Both the position numbers and the translations under genes were made by a program. A stretch of 64,000 nucleotides of DNA, taken from positions 620,001 through 684,000 of the forward strand of contig NZ_CP041638.1 in assembly GCF_007197775.1 (NCBI RefSeq), in the 5' to 3' direction. The notes under the pieces were generated by a model, which made no database searches, was not told the origin of the DNA, and saw only the letters and a program-made list of their open reading frames with translations. Numbering within the stretch: position 1 is the first letter of the stretch; the number at the start of each line of letters is the position of its first letter. The DNA comes from Thalassotalea sp. PS06 (GTDB lineage: Bacteria; Pseudomonadota; Gammaproteobacteria; Enterobacterales; Alteromonadaceae). Below are positions 13,606 through 21,175 of this stretch, piece by piece.

Positions 13606-14133
13606 CTAATAGGTCTGTGGCACGGTTAGGTGAAGGTATTTGCCTTTTTGGCTAAATTCGAGTTGCTTCAATGCACTCATACCAAGCAGTATTTCCTGAC
13701 CGCTCATGCCCGGGTTAATATTGGCGCGCACATTATAAAGGTTTATATCCCCGATACTCAACTCATCGATTACCGTTGCATACACCCGAACTGTGCCATT
13801 AGCCGTCTGAACCATATGACTTCCCTGACGTTGAAGTCCATATCTATCAGCGATTTCCTGAGGAATTGATACGCTCGTAGCTCCAGTGTCGAGCATAAAC
13901 AATGCGTTTTCTCGATTGATGGTTCCGGCGGTAACATAATGGCCATAGCGGTTTCGCTCCAATACCACTTGCTTCGAACCACTTGCGGAAATTCTGTTTT
14001 CAGGATTTTGATTAGGGTTATAGTCGGCATCTAATTTTGTCTGAAAGAACCACACCAATAGAAGTAGTCCAATAATCCAGGCTAACCAAATCATCACTTT
14101 GCCGATTTTCTTGGTATCATCCTGTTGCTGCAT
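13606..14133 (-). CDS. Membrane-anchored retropepsin-like aspartic protease
   Basis: The 175-residue protein has one N-terminal membrane helix (about 13-31) and a single aspartic-protease half-domain with the catalytic motif LDTGATSVSIP (Asp82) and the hydrophobic-Gly motif ILLGMSALKQLEF. This is the clan AA family found in many proteobacteria; active enzymes are homodimers. The catalytic domain should face the periplasm. The gene is 38 bp upstream of nadC and may be co-transcribed with it. Substrate unknown. Confidence 0.85.
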   Translation of the reverse strand: MQQQDDTKKIGKVMIWLAWIIGLLLLVWFFQTKLDADYNPNQNPENRISASGSKQVVLERNRYGHYVTAGTINRENALFMLDTGATSVSIPQEIADRYGLQRQGSHMVQTANGTVRVYATVIDELSIGDINLYNVRANINPGMSGQEILLGMSALKQLEFSQKGKYLHLTVPQTY

Positions 14134-14410
14134 ATCACTCTCTCAATTGGTGGTTTAAAAAAAACGATACTACTGAAAATATTTTCTGTCATCAGTAATC
14201 GTACAACCGCTATAGAAACTTCCTCAACAGCATCAATAATACTGAATTTAAGAACATAATCCGTTTTCTTACACTATATATAGGGACAGAAATTTTCATC
14301 TCAATCGTTCATCTCATGCGCCTGCATCTGAGAAAACGCCATTTCAGTTGCACTAGAACTAAACAATAAGTATGGTGCGGGTATCCATAATCTGTGATTC
14401 CACTGTATTT

Positions 14411-14998
14411 ATGCCTGAATCTTACCAAATTGCTGATGGATTACTGGTTGATTTATCATCCTCTTCCGCAGCTTCACCTAACCAGACGTTTCGCCTGTGT
14501 GCCTCATCTTTTTGTGACGAACGCGAGAGCGATGATATCAGCTTGTTGGTGATTCATAATATTTCCCTGCCGCCAGGTCAGTTTGGCGGCAACTATATTG
14601 ATCAGTTATTTACCGGCTGCTTGAATCCGGATGAACACGAATATTTTCAGGAAATTTACCAATTGCGGGTGTCAGCTCATTGCCTGATTAAACGAACCGG
14701 TGAGATCGTGCAATATGTTCCTTTTGATAAACGCGCCTGGCACGCCGGGGTTTCATCGTTTAAAGGCCGTGATAAATGTAATGATTTTTCTATTGGTATT
14801 GAATTGGAAGGGTGCGATGATATTCCTTATACACAAGAGCAATACCAGGCCCTTGCCAATCTGACAAAAGCGATTCAAAAACAATACCCTGAGATTCTAA
14901 ATGAACACATTACCGGCCATTGTGATATCGCCCCTGGAAGAAAAACCGATCCTGGCGATAGTTTCGACTGGCAATATTATTTGTCCCTCCTTAGGTGA
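14411..14998 (+). CDS. ampD: 1,6-anhydro-N-acetylmuramyl-L-alanine amidase AmpD
   Basis: AmpD is the cytosolic zinc amidase that cleaves anhydromuropeptides during peptidoglycan recycling, so it also controls AmpC induction in species that have it. Motifs include LLVIHNISLPPGQFGG (zinc His), RVSAHCLIKR, RAWHAGVSSFKGR, FSIGIELEG and the C-terminal GHCDIAPGRKTDPG (zinc His and Asp). The frame is open from 14372; I prefer the ATG at 14411 because family members start with a short YxIxDG segment. Neither start has a clear ribosome site. Confidence 0.93.
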   Translation: MPESYQIADGLLVDLSSSSAASPNQTFRLCASSFCDERESDDISLLVIHNISLPPGQFGGNYIDQLFTGCLNPDEHEYFQEIYQLRVSAHCLIKRTGEIVQYVPFDKRAWHAGVSSFKGRDKCNDFSIGIELEGCDDIPYTQEQYQALANLTKAIQKQYPEILNEHITGHCDIAPGRKTDPGDSFDWQYYLSLLR

Positions 14999-15294
14999 AC
15001 AAAGATTGTAACTGGTATGAAGTTACAATTGTTTCTGGTAATCCTGACAATCTACTTGTAGAATTTTTGTTAATACCATTTACGATTTGATGCGGAACAT
15101 TCAACCAATATCGAAAACAGTAAGATGCTAATTCAATTAGTGAATTTGCGTGTTTAACAATTAGGCACAGAAATTTTCGGATTACTCTTATTCGTCCATA
15201 CTTAAAATGTCCAACAGACGCTTTGAATGGATCCCATTTCAATCTTGATTGTTATGTGAAAAAAGATACCAATAAAATATCAGTAGGTTTTTCA
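14999..15294. other. Unusually long ampD-ampE spacer with an inverted repeat
   Basis: ATTGTAACT and AGTTACAAT (about 15006-15030) form a perfect 9-bp inverted repeat after the ampD stop, a possible weak terminator. A reverse-strand open frame (14991-15242) covers most of the gap but has no recognisable domain and no ribosome site, so I treat it as chance or repeat-derived. ampD and ampE are often nearly contiguous, so this spacer may hold inserted DNA. Confidence 0.4.
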
Positions 15295-16140
15295 ATGACT
15301 TTAATTAGCTTGCTAATTGCTCTGGCTGCAGAGCGAATTTTACTCTCCAAATACTGGCAATTTAACTTTTACTTTGGCCAGTACGTTGGCTTTGCCCGAG
15401 GCTTTGTCTCCAAAGGAGAAATTAGCAAGAACGTGTTAAATATCACCGTTTTCGCGCTCCTTCCCGTCGCTATTCTTTCAATCATTCTTTGGTTATTCGA
15501 TAACAGCCTGATTCAATTCGTATTAGTTACCCTGATATTAATCGTTTGTGTCGGCAGCCAGAGAATTCGAGACAGTTACAAAAACTACTTGAATGCGGCA
15601 ATGCGAGGCGATCAAACTGCGGTAGCATTGCATCAGGACGAATTACAACAGGGGCAGAAATTTGAAGGTGAGAGTTTTGGGCAAACGCTTGTCTGGATGA
15701 ATTATCAATACTACATGGCGTTAATGCTGGTCTTTATATTTTTTGGTATTTTAGGCGTAGTCTTCTATCGAATCCTGGTAGCCGTAGCCAATCACAGCGG
15801 TGAAGTAGACGGCGAAAGTTTCCTGCCAGACACTGCCTCAGAGAACGCTCAGAAAATATTATTCTACCTTGATATCATTCCAAGCCGAGCCGTTGCCTTT
15901 GGTTACATGCTGGTAGGTCACTTCTCTAAAGCATCGACGCTGTGGCTGGAAGGGATGCTTAACTTTAAACAAAGCCCTCGCCAGTATTTATGTGAAGTCG
16001 CTGAAATCGCTGAAGACTATCAAATCGATGATGAAGATTGCACAGCCGAACCATGCTTGCTGGTCAGGTTGGCCAAACGAAATGTCCTGTTGTTGTTAGC
16101 AGCGACGGCGTTTATGACGATAGCCGGAGTGGCGAACTAG
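15295..16140 (+). CDS. ampE: AmpE, inner-membrane regulatory protein
   Basis: The protein begins MTLISLLIALAAERIL, the usual AmpE opening, with about four membrane segments and a cytoplasmic region containing DSYKNYLNAAMRGD. AmpE accompanies AmpD and is linked to beta-lactamase induction and cell-envelope signalling; its biochemical role is not settled. I use the ATG at 15295 (AGG 7 bp upstream) instead of the ATG at 15223, whose extra residues fit no family member. The last codons and stop lie in the first unit of a 17-bp tandem repeat. Confidence 0.9.
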   Translation: MTLISLLIALAAERILLSKYWQFNFYFGQYVGFARGFVSKGEISKNVLNITVFALLPVAILSIILWLFDNSLIQFVLVTLILIVCVGSQRIRDSYKNYLNAAMRGDQTAVALHQDELQQGQKFEGESFGQTLVWMNYQYYMALMLVFIFFGILGVVFYRILVAVANHSGEVDGESFLPDTASENAQKILFYLDIIPSRAVAFGYMLVGHFSKASTLWLEGMLNFKQSPRQYLCEVAEIAEDYQIDDEDCTAEPCLLVRLAKRNVLLLLAATAFMTIAGVAN

Positions 16141-16237
16141 CCGAAAACGCGAACTGGCCGAAAGCGCGAACTGGCCGAAAGCGCGAACTGGCCGAAAGCG
16201 CGAACTGGCCGAAAGCGCAAACTCTTCGCGTTTTCGG
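16132..16237. repeat. 17-bp tandem repeat inside a larger hairpin, overlapping the ampE stop
   Basis: The unit GCGAACTGGCCGAAAGC starts at 16132, 16149, 16166, 16183 and 16200, with a partial sixth at 16217. The first unit carries TAG, the ampE stop, where the others have TGG. CCGAAAACGCG (16141-16151) and CGCGTTTTCGG (16227-16237) are perfect inverted copies flanking the array, so the repeats look like an expansion within the loop of a former terminator. Confidence 0.85.
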
Positions 16238-16238
16238 A

Positions 16239-16346
16239 GGTGGAGTAGCAAACAAAGTTTGCTAAGGTGGAGTACGAAAGCTAGTTTCGTAAGGTGGAGT
16301 ATGAAACAGAGTTTCATATGGTGGATTGCGAAATTGGATTTCGCAG
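16239..16346. repeat. 27-bp hairpin repeat array with covarying stems
   Basis: Four exact 27-bp units start at 16239, 16266, 16293 and 16320, each with GGTGGA followed by a short hairpin. Stems are TAGCAAAC/GTTTGCTA, TACGAAA/TTTCGTA, TATGAAAC/GTTTCATA and TGCGAAAT/ATTTCGCA. Differences between units are compensated on the opposite arm. A related, decayed unit is at about 16885. Confidence 0.85.
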
Positions 16347-17000
16347 GGTGGAAGTGGTAGTCCTCTCCGCGACCTGCAATCTGTGTTTTACGTCAGCTTC
16401 GCGTAAGTGGAAATCTTTTCTCAAACCCTTTGGCTTAGATACCCTGTCGTAGCAGGGTATGACGAAACCAAGAGCCAATTTGGCAATTGGGGGTATCAAA
16501 GGCTATCTAATTCGAAGGTGGAAGTGGTAATGCCCTCCGCGACCTGCAATCTGTGTTTTAGGTCAGCTTCGCGCAAGTGGAAATCTTTTCTCAAACCCTT
16601 TGGCTTAGATACCCTGTCGTAGCAGGGTATGACGAAACCAAGAGCTAATTTGGCAATTGGGGGGTATCAAAGGCTATCTAATTCGAAGGTGGAAGAGGAA
16701 GGTGGAAGGGGTAATGCACTCCACGACCTGCAATCTAACTTTTACGTCAGCTTCGCGCAAGTGGCGCTCTTCTCTCTAACCTTTTGACTAAGGTACCTTG
16801 ACGTAGCAAGGTATGGCCAAATCAAAAGGCTGACTTATTGGCTAGGTGTATTAAAAGCTATCTAATTCGAAGGTGGAAGAGGAAGGTGGACTGCGAAATT
16901 GGATTGCGGAGGGTGGAAGTGGTAATGCCCTCCGCGATCTGAAGCCAAACCTTTTCTACACCTCAGCGTAAGTGTAGGCAACTGCCGCTAGCGCAACAAT
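16347..17000. repeat. Tandem repeats of about 170 bp with conserved internal hairpins
   Basis: Units start with GGTGGAAG at 16347, 16517, 16688 and 16872 (lengths 170, 171, 184 and a partial of about 130). Units 1 and 2 are nearly identical; unit 3 is diverged and has an extra GGTGGAAGAGGAA. Each of the first three has an inner hairpin, TACCCTG/CAGGGTA in units 1 and 2 and TACCTTG/CAAGGTA in unit 3, a compensatory C-G to T-A change. No reading frame is conserved between units. Confidence 0.85.
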
Positions 17001-17018
17001 TAACGCAAAAACTTTGTC

Positions 17019-17038
17019 ATCCCGGTGTCGACCGGGAT
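17019..17038. repeat. Short palindrome ATCCCGGT/ACCGGGAT
   Basis: ATCCCGGT (17019-17026) and ACCGGGAT (17031-17038) form a perfect 8-bp stem with GTCG in the loop, preceded by GTC. It resembles one end of the composite inverted element at 42324-42459. Confidence 0.6.
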
Positions 17039-17095
17039 CTCTACCTTTTGCTATCGCCAGTCGCAAGGTTCTGAATTTTGCTTCTCAGGAACTAA

Positions 17096-17252
17096 TACCA
17101 ATCCCATTAAAACTCACCCACAGGGAGTTAGTGAGAGGCCCATTTACTGCCCTATATATCATTAATATAGAATGACTAAATCAATAAAATCTATGTTGTA
17201 ACTGAACCTCGGCCCTAACTCTGAGTTGTGCACAAACTTAGTGGGATTGGTA
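17096..17252 (+). mobile_element. MITE copy 1, 157-bp internally deleted form
   Basis: It starts TACCAATCCCATTAA and ends TAGTGGGATTGGTA, with TAA directly repeated on both sides (17093-17095 and 17253-17255). Compared with the two 263-bp copies it lacks 106 bp between two TTTAAA-like sequences, as expected for deletion between short direct repeats. It lies between the ampE repeat island and the pdhR promoter. Confidence 0.85.
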
Positions 17253-17386
17253 TAAGTGTTTGAAGCTGATTTGCCAGAGTGCTAGAAATCGCGTTTGCTT
17301 TGCCCTGTCTAAGTCTATTCTCCCTACGAGGCACGAAAACTGAAATCCTAAACCTTCCTCCATTGTGACCTGAAACCCCTCTTTAT

Positions 17387-17401
17387 ATTGGTCTGACCAA
17401 T
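17387..17401 (+). promoter_or_regulatory. PdhR-type operator 1
   Basis: ATTGGTCTGACCAAT is a perfect palindrome matching the E. coli PdhR consensus ATTGGTNNNACCAAT. It lies about 200 bp before the pdhR start. Autoregulation by pyruvate-sensing PdhR is inferred from site and position. Confidence 0.7.
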
Positions 17402-17513
17402 GACTTCAGAGTGGAATATTTAGCAAAAATTATTGCCTGTCTAGTCCTCAATTTTTCGACAAAATTTTACATCAAAGAGATCTCGTGTTATGTTTTACCC
17501 TATATTTACCTAA

Positions 17514-17528
17514 ATTGGTAAGACCATT
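17514..17528 (+). promoter_or_regulatory. PdhR-type operator 2
   Basis: ATTGGTAAGACCATT matches the same operator with one deviation and lies 67 bp before the pdhR ATG, close to where a promoter would sit. Two sites 127 bp apart could allow cooperative repression of pdhR-aceEF. Confidence 0.7.
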
Positions 17529-17595
17529 TTACCATTAGTTTCCCGGTGATTGGGCGGCATTAGTAAGCTAAAAAAGACAGTATGAGGCGATAACC

Positions 17596-18369
17596 ATGGC
17601 TTTTAAAAAGGTACAACAGGCAAAGATATCCGATGTCATTGTTGAACATCTCGAAGCTATGATCCTCGAGGGTAGTCTTAAAGCCGGACAAAAATTGCCC
17701 CCTGAACGGGAATTGGCGGAGCAGTTTCAGGTTTCCAGACCATCTTTACGCGAGGCGATTCAAAAACTGGAAAGTAAAGAACTGGTATATCGTCGCCAGG
17801 GTGGCGGCACTTTTGTTAATGAACAGCTTTTGAGCGGCATGGGTGATCCCATGTTTGATTTGTTGGCAAAAAAGGGCGAATCGCAATATGACTTGCTTGA
17901 ATTTCGTCATGGTATCCAGGGGATGGCTGCATATTACGCAGCGATGCGCGGTACTAAAACGGATTTTGCCAATATCCAGCAAAAGTATGACGCCATGACC
18001 GATGCGCAAATTGAAAACACCGCGATTAGTGAAAATTTTCATGGTGAAGCGGTTGCCGTATTTGAGTTTTATCTGGCAATTTGCAACGCCTCTCACAATG
18101 CGGTGCTATTGCATTTGTCACGCTCAATGTCGACGTTATTGATTGATAATATTGAGAAAAACTTACAGGTGCTGGCAAAAAGGCCAGAAGTACCGGGCAA
18201 AATTGCCGAATACCGTAAACGCCTGTTAGAAGCCATTTTAAGTGGCGAACCGAATAAAGCATGGGGAGCCAGTCACAAAAATCTGGCTTACATCGAAGAA
18301 GTATTACTAAAACTTGGTGAAGAAAACAGCCGGGTTAAACGTTCTTTGAGACGATTACAAACCAGATAG
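17596..18369 (+). CDS. pdhR: Pyruvate dehydrogenase complex repressor PdhR
   Basis: This is a GntR/FadR-family regulator. The N-terminal winged helix (residues about 10-75) reads AGQKLPPERELAEQFQVSRPSLREAIQKLESKEL, and the helical FCD effector domain covers about 95-240. In relatives pyruvate releases the repressor from the aceEF operators. At 257 residues it has the family length. The start has GAGG 8 bp upstream. Its place directly before aceE and two matching operators make the assignment firm. Confidence 0.94.
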   Translation: MAFKKVQQAKISDVIVEHLEAMILEGSLKAGQKLPPERELAEQFQVSRPSLREAIQKLESKELVYRRQGGGTFVNEQLLSGMGDPMFDLLAKKGESQYDLLEFRHGIQGMAAYYAAMRGTKTDFANIQQKYDAMTDAQIENTAISENFHGEAVAVFEFYLAICNASHNAVLLHLSRSMSTLLIDNIEKNLQVLAKRPEVPGKIAEYRKRLLEAILSGEPNKAWGASHKNLAYIEEVLLKLGEENSRVKRSLRRLQTR

Positions 18370-18502
18370 AACACTGGTTTCACTCAAATTCTCAAAGACT
18401 TAATTTTTCATGGTGAAACTAAAGACAGTTGCTGATTTTCAACTATCTTTAATACAAAAAATTTCGCCGTATTTTTTTATAATTTGGAGTTAGAACATCG
18501 TT

Positions 18503-21175
18503 ATGTCTGAGATCCTCAACCACGATATCGATCCGCAAGAAACACAAGAATGGCTAGAGTCCATGGAAGCGGTGCTGGAGCAGGAAGGTCCTGAACGCGC
18601 CCATCAATTACTGGAAACCCTGATTGACCGAGCGCGCCGTGGCGGTACTCACTTACCATTTGATGCCACAACTGCTTATGTAAACACTATCCCTGCGGGT
18701 CAGGAACCAAACATGCCTGGTGATTTGACCATCGAAGCACGCATTCGCGCAGCAATTCGCTGGAATGCTTTGGTATTGGTATTACGAGCGTCTAAGAAAG
18801 ACCTGGAGCTTGGCGGTCATATCGGTTCGTTCGCATCTTCAGCAATGTTGTACGATGTAGGTTTTAACCACTTTTTCAAAGCGGCAACGGAAAAAGACGG
18901 CGGCGACTTTATTTTTGCTCAGGGTCACATCTCTCCGGGCATCTATTCACGCGCATTTGTCGAAGGTCGTTTAACCGAAGAGCAAATGAATAATTTCCGT
19001 CAGGAAGTAGACGGCAATGGCTTATCCTCATACCCGCATCCGCACTTAATGCCGGACTTCTGGCAGTTCCCAACGGTTTCCATGGGCTTAGGTCCATTAC
19101 AGGCCATTTATACGGCTCGTTTCCTTAAATATCTGACCGACCGTGGTATTAAAGATTGTTCCGGTCAGCGCGTATATTGTTTCCTGGGTGACGGTGAAAC
19201 CGATGAGCCAGAATCATTAGGTGCTATAGGCCTGGCTTCTCGTGAAGGCTTAGACAACCTTACTTTCATAATCAACTGTAACCTGCAACGTCTTGATGGT
19301 CCGGTTCGTGGTAACGGCAAAATCATCCAGGAACTTGAAGGTACTTTCCGCGGTGCTGGCTGGGAAGTTGTTAAAGTTATCTGGGGTTCGTATTGGGATG
19401 CTTTATTAGCTCGTGATACCTCAGGTAAGCTGTTGCAGTTAATGAATGAAACAGTTGATGGTGAATATCAGAACTGTAAAGCCAAAGGCGGCAAATACAC
19501 CCGCGAAAACTTCTTTAACAAATATCCAGAAACGGCAGCGCTTGTTGCCAATATGTCCGATGAAGATATTTATCGTTTGAATCGTGGTGGACACGATCCG
19601 GTTAAAGTCTATTCGGCTTATAAGAAAGCGATGGAAACCAAAGGCCGTCCAACGGTTATCTTGGCAAAAACCGTTAAAGGTTTTGGTCTGGGCGCTTCTG
19701 GTGAAGCACTGAATATTGCTCACAACGTCAAGAAAATGGATATTGAATCGGTTAAACAATATCGTGATCGTTTTAACATTCCGGTTAGCGACGAAGATAT
19801 TGCCGACTTACCATATTTTAAATTCCCGGAAGATTCCGCGGAATACAAATACATGCAAGAGCGCCGTGCGGCTTTAGGTGGCGCATTACCAGCTCGTTTA
19901 GAACAAGCTGAAGAAACCTTAGAAATACCTAAGTTAAGTATTTTTGATGCTATCTTGAAAGGCTCAAATGGTCGCGAAATTTCATCTACCATGACGTTTG
20001 TTCGTGTCTTGAATAGCCTACTTAAAGATAAGAAAATTGGTAAGCGAATCGTGCCAATCATCCCCGATGAAGCACGTACCTTCGGTATGGAAGGTCTGTT
20101 CCGTCAGGTAGGTATCTATGCCCATGAAGGGCAAAAATACGTACCTCAGGATGCCGACCAGGTTGCTTATTATCGTGAAGATAAAAAAGGTCAGGTTTTA
20201 CAGGAAGGTATTAACGAACTAGGCGCGATGGCGTCATGGGTTGCATCAGGCACCTCTTATTCCACTTGTAATACCACAACCATTCCATTTTACATCTATT
20301 ACTCGATGTTCGGTTTCCAACGCGTTGGCGATTTAGCCTGGGCTGCAGGTGATAGCCAGGCGCGAGGCTTCTTGCTAGGTGCAACTGCAGGAAGAACAAC
20401 CCTAAATGGTGAAGGTTTACAACACCAGGATGGTCACTCACACGTACAGGCAAACCTGATCCCTAATTGTGTCACCTATGATCCTACCTATGGTTACGAA
20501 GTGGCGGTCATCGTGCGTGAAGGTTTACGTCGTATGTATGAAGAAAATGAAAATATTTTCTATTACCTGACTCTGATGAATGAAAACTATGAGCACCCGG
20601 CTATTCCTGAAGGTGCAGAAGAAGGCATCATCAAAGGGATCTATAAGCTAGATACGGTTAAGCCGGGCAAAAAAGCGAAAGCCAATGTTCAGCTCATGGG
20701 CTCTGGTACTATCTTGATTCAGGTGCGCGAGGCAGCTCGTATTCTTGCCGAAGATTTTGGTATCTCTTCTGATGTTTATTCTGTGACCTCTTACAATGAA
20801 TTGGCTCGAGAAGGTCAGGAAGCGGCGCGTTTCAACATGTTGCACCCAGAAGCTGAACCTAAAGTTCCATATATCTCTTCAGTGATCACTAAAGATGCAG
20901 GCCCTGCAATTTCTGCAACTGATTATGTGAAAGCCTATTCTGACCAGTTACGTGCATTTATCGATACCGATTATCGCGTGCTTGGTACTGACGGTTTCGG
21001 TCGTTCGGATAGCCGTGCAAATTTACGTCGTCATTTTGAAGTTGACCACAATTACATTGTTGTTGCCTCGTTATACGAGTTAGCGCAACGCGGTGACATT
21101 GAAATGAGTATTGTAAGCAAAGCGATTGCTGATTTTGGTATCAACACCGATAAAATTAACCCGCTTTACGCATAA
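18503..21175 (+). CDS. aceE: Pyruvate dehydrogenase E1 component (homodimeric type)
   Basis: E1 decarboxylates pyruvate with thiamine diphosphate and transfers the acetyl unit to lipoyl-E2. The 890-residue protein matches the AceE length. The ThDP motif GDGETDEPES...NCNLQ is near residues 230-258, and HISPGIYSRAF, SYPHPHLMPDFWQFPTVSMGLG and GLQHQDGHSH are characteristic. It begins 133 bp after pdhR and is followed by aceF after 21 bp. Confidence 0.97.
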   Translation: MSEILNHDIDPQETQEWLESMEAVLEQEGPERAHQLLETLIDRARRGGTHLPFDATTAYVNTIPAGQEPNMPGDLTIEARIRAAIRWNALVLVLRASKKDLELGGHIGSFASSAMLYDVGFNHFFKAATEKDGGDFIFAQGHISPGIYSRAFVEGRLTEEQMNNFRQEVDGNGLSSYPHPHLMPDFWQFPTVSMGLGPLQAIYTARFLKYLTDRGIKDCSGQRVYCFLGDGETDEPESLGAIGLASREGLDNLTFIINCNLQRLDGPVRGNGKIIQELEGTFRGAGWEVVKVIWGSYWDALLARDTSGKLLQLMNETVDGEYQNCKAKGGKYTRENFFNKYPETAALVANMSDEDIYRLNRGGHDPVKVYSAYKKAMETKGRPTVILAKTVKGFGLGASGEALNIAHNVKKMDIESVKQYRDRFNIPVSDEDIADLPYFKFPEDSAEYKYMQERRAALGGALPARLEQAEETLEIPKLSIFDAILKGSNGREISSTMTFVRVLNSLLKDKKIGKRIVPIIPDEARTFGMEGLFRQVGIYAHEGQKYVPQDADQVAYYREDKKGQVLQEGINELGAMASWVASGTSYSTCNTTTIPFYIYYSMFGFQRVGDLAWAAGDSQARGFLLGATAGRTTLNGEGLQHQDGHSHVQANLIPNCVTYDPTYGYEVAVIVREGLRRMYEENENIFYYLTLMNENYEHPAIPEGAEEGIIKGIYKLDTVKPGKKAKANVQLMGSGTILIQVREAARILAEDFGISSDVYSVTSYNELAREGQEAARFNMLHPEAEPKVPYISSVITKDAGPAISATDYVKAYSDQLRAFIDTDYRVLGTDGFGRSDSRANLRRHFEVDHNYIVVASLYELAQRGDIEMSIVSKAIADFGINTDKINPLYA

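Follow-up and report, generated by a model that had tools for sequence, protein, structure and literature searches.

Bacterial REP sequences have been defined by a GT[A/G]G tetranucleotide together with a palindrome of variable base composition (PMC3686654), and individual REP families split into subfamilies carrying alternative complementary stem residues (PMC3733652). Their stems are usually 6-9 bp, head-to-tail dimers are described as rare in most genomes with tandem clusters on record, GTAG REPs often show G-T pairs, and REPs often sit 3′ of genes and may act as RNA (PMC3733652). In the REPtron Mb of Marinomonas, perfect short palindromes lie 2 bases from the GTAG (PMC8266576). The repeat family described here shares with the RAYT-associated GTAG/GTGG REPs of Stenotrophomonas (SMAG) and Marinomonas, as these are characterised in PMC3686654, PMC3733652 and PMC8266576, a GT[A/G]G tag with a short perfect palindrome 0-2 nt away, a high-copy intergenic distribution mostly 3′ of genes, alternative complementary stems and inverted pairs with their tags outward. 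It differs from them in its six-letter tag GGTGGA, in the 32 perfect stem types found under that one tag, in its head-to-tail runs, in inverted pairs that always combine a short with a long type, and in that no intact RAYT was found. REPIN and BIME elements (definitions in PMC3686654) likewise consist of inverted REPs that face outward across a spacer and recur in mosaics, whereas in the present family the two ends are of different type (17/17) and one end may consist of several head-to-tail units. Scattered, lineage-specific intergenic hairpins of divergent sequence are also known as repetitive hairpin elements of sponge mitochondria (PMC2800124); the likeness is one of description, the sponge elements residing in organelle DNA and their abstract naming no GT[A/G]G tag. 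Neither GGTGGA-tagged repeats nor Thalassotalea REPs are the subject of any of the top-ranked open-licence papers found.

The window analysed is a stretch of 64,000 nt (C1:620001-684000) from the single-contig 3.8-Mb genome of Thalassotalea sp. PS06, and positions given without a prefix refer to it. Four head-to-tail units of 27 bp, each arranged as GGTGGA + N + hairpin + N, occupy 16239-16346 on the forward strand. Unit 1 (16239-16265) consists of the tag (16239-16244), a free G, the stem TAGCAAAC/GTTTGCTA with loop AAA and a free A; unit 2 (16266-16292) of the tag (16266-16271), a free G, the stem TACGAAA/TTTCGTA with loop GCTAG and a free A; unit 3 (16293-16319) of the tag (16293-16298), a free G, the stem TATGAAAC/GTTTCATA with loop AGA and a free T; and unit 4 (16320-16346) of the tag (16320-16325), a free T, the stem TGCGAAAT/ATTTCGCA with loop TGG and a free G. 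Re-reading the sequence confirmed these four exact 27-bp units, their invariant GGTGGA and their arms as given in the preliminary description. All four stems are perfect hairpins of 7-8 bp, and the GTGG of the tag lies 2 nt from the start of the hairpin in every unit, which places a GT[A/G]G tetranucleotide next to a palindrome as in REPs. When the 108 nt were folded as single-stranded DNA, exactly these four hairpins were obtained (-23 kcal/mol, z -9.3, 0/200 shuffles as good).

The array is followed on the same strand by a 170-bp unit (16347-16516) that opens with a fifth GGTGGA tag, and by a second copy of it from 16517; these direct repeats, each opening with GGTGGA, match over 147 nt at 96% identity with a spacing of 170, and a diverged third copy can be seen by eye at about 16711. 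A decayed tagged unit resembling unit 4, with 5/7 arm positions paired, lies at 16885-16911 (forward strand) and is followed by another tag. Upstream, ampE (15223-16140, forward strand; Pfam AmpE 94.5 bits, cut-off 21) lies 99 bp 5′ of the array in the same orientation; gene names other than AmpE, such as rlmD, relA and ispF, are our own assignments, presumed from sequence. The interval before the array holds a 17-bp tandem repeat (16123-16237), whose start overlaps the ampE stop codon and whose end arm (16225-16237) is complementary to its first unit (16141-16153). Further downstream, a MITE-like element of ~160 bp (17095-17253) has the inverted ends ATACCAATCCCA / TGGGATTGGTAT, and one same-genus genome (L359) carries a sequence resembling it between rlmD and relA. 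We also noted by eye CGTC- or TGTC-tagged hairpins with stems starting AT at 16439-16464, 16609-16634 and 17015-17038; these resemble the CGTC REP superfamily (PMC3733652), in which case one mosaic would hold both REP types.

The window array is a member of a dispersed intergenic family of this genome. The pattern GGTGGA-N14-34-GGTGGA occurs at 158 places, against 89 for the reversed pattern, a control that is not independent because the arrays themselves contain AGGTGG; triple-tag arrays number 67 genome-wide, and their reversed control gave 0. With R1, a covariance model of the 25-bp unit, we obtained at least 113 matches, a lower bound since the search used strict filters and scored up to 132 candidates per genome. 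We inspected 100 of the 158 tag-pair places as listed, and the remaining 58 were partly reached through the R1 search. In total we collected 141 short tagged hairpins spread over 22 stretches, in which the invariance of the tag is by construction, GGTGGA having been the search term. In the typical unit a single unpaired base separates the tag from a hairpin of mostly 6-9 bp (within the range of about 6-13 bp and variable composition of REP palindromes), which has a mostly purine loop and is followed by one further unpaired base. A few of the units classed as long are likely to be chance hairpins, as one imperfect short stem also appears to be; units, runs and sites are interrelated rather than independent, so that the p values below are indicative. 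In some long-type units, for instance at L273:15435-15469, the loop was seen by eye to contain TCCAC, the complement of the tag's GTGGA, which might allow the two to pair.

We assessed pairing in a tandem set of 123 segments from 18 stretches, picked solely by their flanking tags and blind to pairing. Its 79 distinct units have Watson-Crick pairs at 517 of 553 arm positions, against 269 when right arms were permuted (sd 11; maximum of 1000 permutations 304), and 59 of them have perfect stems. The same hairpin family is present in Thalassotalea mangrovi, where 31 distinct units are paired at 201/217 positions against 114 (sd 7.5) after permutation. In gapless alignments of the 25-bp units (36 distinct, both species) and the 29-bp units (36 distinct), 96.4% and 97.6% of cells are paired, 58 and 45 cells are changed on both sides, and 6/7 and 5/7 pairs, respectively, change on both sides. 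Pairing, both-side-changed cells and the covariation score were each reached by 0/500 shuffles in both alignments, with slid controls far lower. The count of pairs altered on both sides exceeded shuffles weakly (26/500 for 25-bp, 46/500 for 29-bp units), and the number of further pair types was no better than in shuffles (291/500 and 500/500). The preliminary description had proposed from the window that stems differ while pairing is kept, with paired positions changing on both arms, and had suggested a covariation test on units from related genomes; run here on units of both species, the test extends that proposal to the whole genome and to a second species, and the arm changes are paired far more often than chance, the opposite of the outcome that would have spoken against it. 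For the covariation it had offered two causes, selection for the fold or a copying mechanism acting on both arms at once, either of which may apply.

Some arrays are clearly amplified: C1:2707298-2707535 holds near-identical units and C1:2923071-2923501 two units in alternation, as expected if a few ancestral hairpins had been copied by slippage and had then drifted, their pairing being inherited rather than maintained. However, drift would break pairing, which stands at nearly twice the permuted level, and both arms change together; as a full account, tandem amplification alone is therefore very improbable.

Requiring 6 or more of 7 pairs, we counted 56 distinct short stems, 32 perfect and 24 with one mismatch, in 22 stretches of this genome and three of T. 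mangrovi. All but two of the one-mismatch stems (22/24) are a single change away from a perfect stem seen elsewhere, five of them lying between two perfect stems, and 31 of the 41 single-pair differences between perfect stems are transitions, so the route between stems looks stepwise from these comparisons. Paired, stepwise and transition-rich arm changes (31/41) are also a property of hairpins maintained by template switching (PMC8794818), in which one arm would be re-copied from the other during replication and a point mutation become a paired change with no selection on the hairpin. This is the main rival to the reading we prefer, and we regard it as unlikely. The process is known to create and mend stems (PMC8794818), and the frequency of one-mismatch stems is in keeping with it, as are the absence of a wobble preference among mismatches and the TTT loops of two T. 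mangrovi 25-bp units where AAA is the commonest loop here, as loop inversion would give. Yet it is a mutation process and not a repeat family, and it leaves unexplained the fixed tag, the dispersal throughout one lineage, the 3′ location and the outward long/short pairs. Moreover, template copying that overran the stem would be expected to pair the flanks now and then, and the flanking bases pair in 1/81 units against 6.1 expected. Of the 81 distinct units, 63 start with G, yet in none is the stem followed by C, so it never extends there; in the permutation test this boundary reaches 0.3% for both species jointly and is clear only jointly, the values being 5% here and 25% in T. mangrovi. The first stem pair is T-A in 80/85. 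Loops of the 25-bp units are purine-rich on the tag strand (65/72 letters here, 22/33 in T. mangrovi), which argues that loop inversion is rare, although template copying without inversion would still be compatible.

Genes were taken as the longest ORFs of at least 80 aa, a heuristic definition. On this basis none of the 32 short runs in this genome lies inside an ORF, which, with the 141 short hairpins, matches the high-copy intergenic habit of REPs. Short runs lie 3′ of a same-strand gene in 26/32 cases (p 5e-4), most of them 10-120 bp past its stop codon, and 28/32 have the tag towards the nearer gene; there is no sense bias for the long runs here (8/16), nor a significant one for the T. 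mangrovi short runs (5/8 usable). Most neighbours are head-to-tail; inside runs, 151 neighbouring pairs share a strand, 124 of them in this genome and 27 in T. mangrovi, with gaps of up to 120 bp. Opposite-strand neighbouring runs up to 700 bp apart face with their tags outward in 17 cases (12 here, 5 in T. mangrovi) and inward in 2, the outward inverted arrangement of REPINs and BIMEs. All 17 outward pairs combine one short-loop with one long-loop run, two of them carrying identical short units that may be copies of one element. Within the window itself the head-to-tail array is the sole arrangement seen.

A position shortly downstream of stop codons would also suit arrays that are transcribed as mRNA 3′ ends, their hairpins being selected as RNA for stability, for processing or as a protein site, and REPs are often so placed and may act in this way (PMC3733652). 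Selection on a sense RNA should however make G.U mismatches outnumber A.C, which was not observed (4 G.U and 6 A.C, beside 14 others, in the 24 one-mismatch stems; 5 and 6 in the tandem set), whereas G-T pairs are frequent in published GTAG REPs (PMC3733652); with counts this small the result is a lack of support and not a disproof. The RNA fold of the window array also beats shuffles (z -5.8), yet its minimum-energy structure is not the four hairpins but one that joins units. No terminator-like site was found in 16000-17700, and a search of 14000-19000 with the Rfam 15 covariance models placed no family over the array, its single match lying elsewhere and below the gathering score. We consider an RNA function improbable as the explanation of the paired stems, more so than template switching.

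Thalassotalea mangrovi is the nearest relative seen: its RlmD shares 67% identity with that of the present genome, compared with 50-57% for those of 13 same-genus genomes. The proteins from ispF to rlmD are 64-96% identical between the two species and in broadly the same order, with some genes of the cluster inverted or reordered, for which reason 2 of 5 intergenic gaps were matched by one neighbouring gene. At the five matching gaps the short arrays have the same strand layout in both species, the tagged units numbering 40 in this genome and 25 in T. mangrovi, and only one hairpin core, next to relA and rlmD, is common to both. Between rlmD and relA this genome has a tagged gap of 418 bp; in 12 same-genus genomes the gap measures 8-185 bp and is tag-free, a thirteenth being left out because its rlmD frame is broken. 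The tag-free gap in these relatives, together with the matching layout, indicates that the element was gained in this lineage, after which place and strand were kept and stems turned over. In two comparisons (L273:8865-10053 with L090:6-1035, and L273:3619-4912 with L147:2547-4098) the genes between tagged arrays are inverted or reordered, as if inverted arrays had recombined; we take one of these genes to be YjbQ/UPF0047-like and one to be GIY-YIG-like.

Beyond these two species, the triple-tag pattern was found in 0/96 other relatives (14 from the genus, 43 from the family and 39 from the order). R1, with up to 132 candidates scored per genome, matched none of 14 same-genus genomes, and 3/44 others showed a single weak match apiece. 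The pattern does occur elsewhere, in at least 118 public genome stretches and 80 viral stretches, and among the 198 loci listed, runs of tagged hairpins were present only in three loci of T. mangrovi; the one or two stems present in each of four further loci we take as chance. Four-helix 23S_rRNA_IVP genes are present in three copies, one of which ends within a tagged unit whose hairpin encodes its last codons (L273:9194-9221), and an outward long unit 3′ of the four-helix gene occurs in T. mangrovi only. A link of the family with these genes was dropped, the stretches round the other two copies being free of tagged hairpins. A small secreted-looking ORF built of GEGKCGEGK repeats, which presumably resembles metal-binding peptide precursors, was noted at L044:256-588 on the reverse strand.

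In REPs a RAYT gene is flanked by cognate repeats, and such a gene is the one feature that we did not recover: this genome contains no intact RAYT above the Pfam Y1_Tnp cut-off, so that an active RAYT was rejected, and its sole Y1_Tnp relative falls just below threshold (22.1 of 23 bits) with no tagged hairpins found around it. The search was able to detect such genes, with Y1_Tnp matches in 36/59 genomes (this one included), 35 of them above the cut-off. By alignment, with the HUH and tyrosine motif positions being those we assume, the relative lacks the HUH histidines and the tyrosine. The alignment included ORFs from six of ten relative loci (L341-L346, passing a motif filter; L339, L340, L347 and L348 left out), and an intact H-x-H is missing in 3/6 of these genus relatives too, so the decay is not special to this genome. 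The RAYT family can be missing from some REP-bearing species (PMC3733652).

In sequence, structure and location the unit agrees with REPs, and we class the family as REP-like, most likely a REP family of the GTGG type. The preliminary description had known of no named family for the array, a view not supported by comparison with the literature, since tag, hairpin and location fit the REP definition (PMC3686654) and the subfamily pattern (PMC3733652). We call it a variant on account of its stem diversity, head-to-tail runs and long/short composites, and do not file it as a proven REP because of the missing transposase; it looks like a new, unusually diverse branch of known bacterial REP repeats.

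Pairing has been kept, the stem is bounded, the family has spread in one lineage and its arrays have grown locally in tandem. As the explanation we favour, with a probability of about 0.58, a GTGG-tagged REP-like family that dispersed in the lineage shared by T. mangrovi and the present species, its tag-plus-hairpin unit being copied as single-stranded DNA by a RAYT/TnpA_REP-type enzyme that ignored the stem letters. Such an enzyme, since decayed, lost or unrecognised here, would recognise the tag together with a hairpin of any stem sequence. Any paired stem would then be a valid substrate and unpaired ones would fall out of copying, so that stems would drift through paired forms; growth within a site may have come about by slippage or unequal recombination, giving the runs of identical or alternating units, and template switching might act alongside. 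Stem-agnostic copying of this kind is consistent with the 2-nt spacing of GTGG, the pairing over 56 stems and the unselected tandem set, the sharply bounded stem, the 3′-of-gene location, the outward short/long pairs, the gain at rlmD-relA and the single-stranded DNA fold. Against it stand the failure to find an intact RAYT in this genome, the prediction that pairing should decay after loss of the enzyme, when 59/79 distinct tandem units are perfect, and the lack of a significant sense bias in the T. mangrovi short runs or the long runs here. The evidence for mobility is indirect, a gap without an array in related genomes, at rlmD-relA, the one gap checked. More speculatively, and rather doubtfully, a single six-letter tag may license any hairpin whatever, the stems varying freely among dozens of pairing variants as tag, boundary, position and strand layout are held and with no intact RAYT found; either an unrecognised enzyme would read tag and hairpin shape, or replication would rewrite the arms and the tag mark where.

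Under a single tag the family offers a natural series of paired stems, complete with one-mismatch intermediates, within one genome and, at corresponding gaps, in a second species. Such a series makes two questions testable: how much stem divergence REP copying tolerates, and whether paired changes arise by selection or by template switching. It also carries the caution that covariation among repeat copies need not mean a functional RNA.
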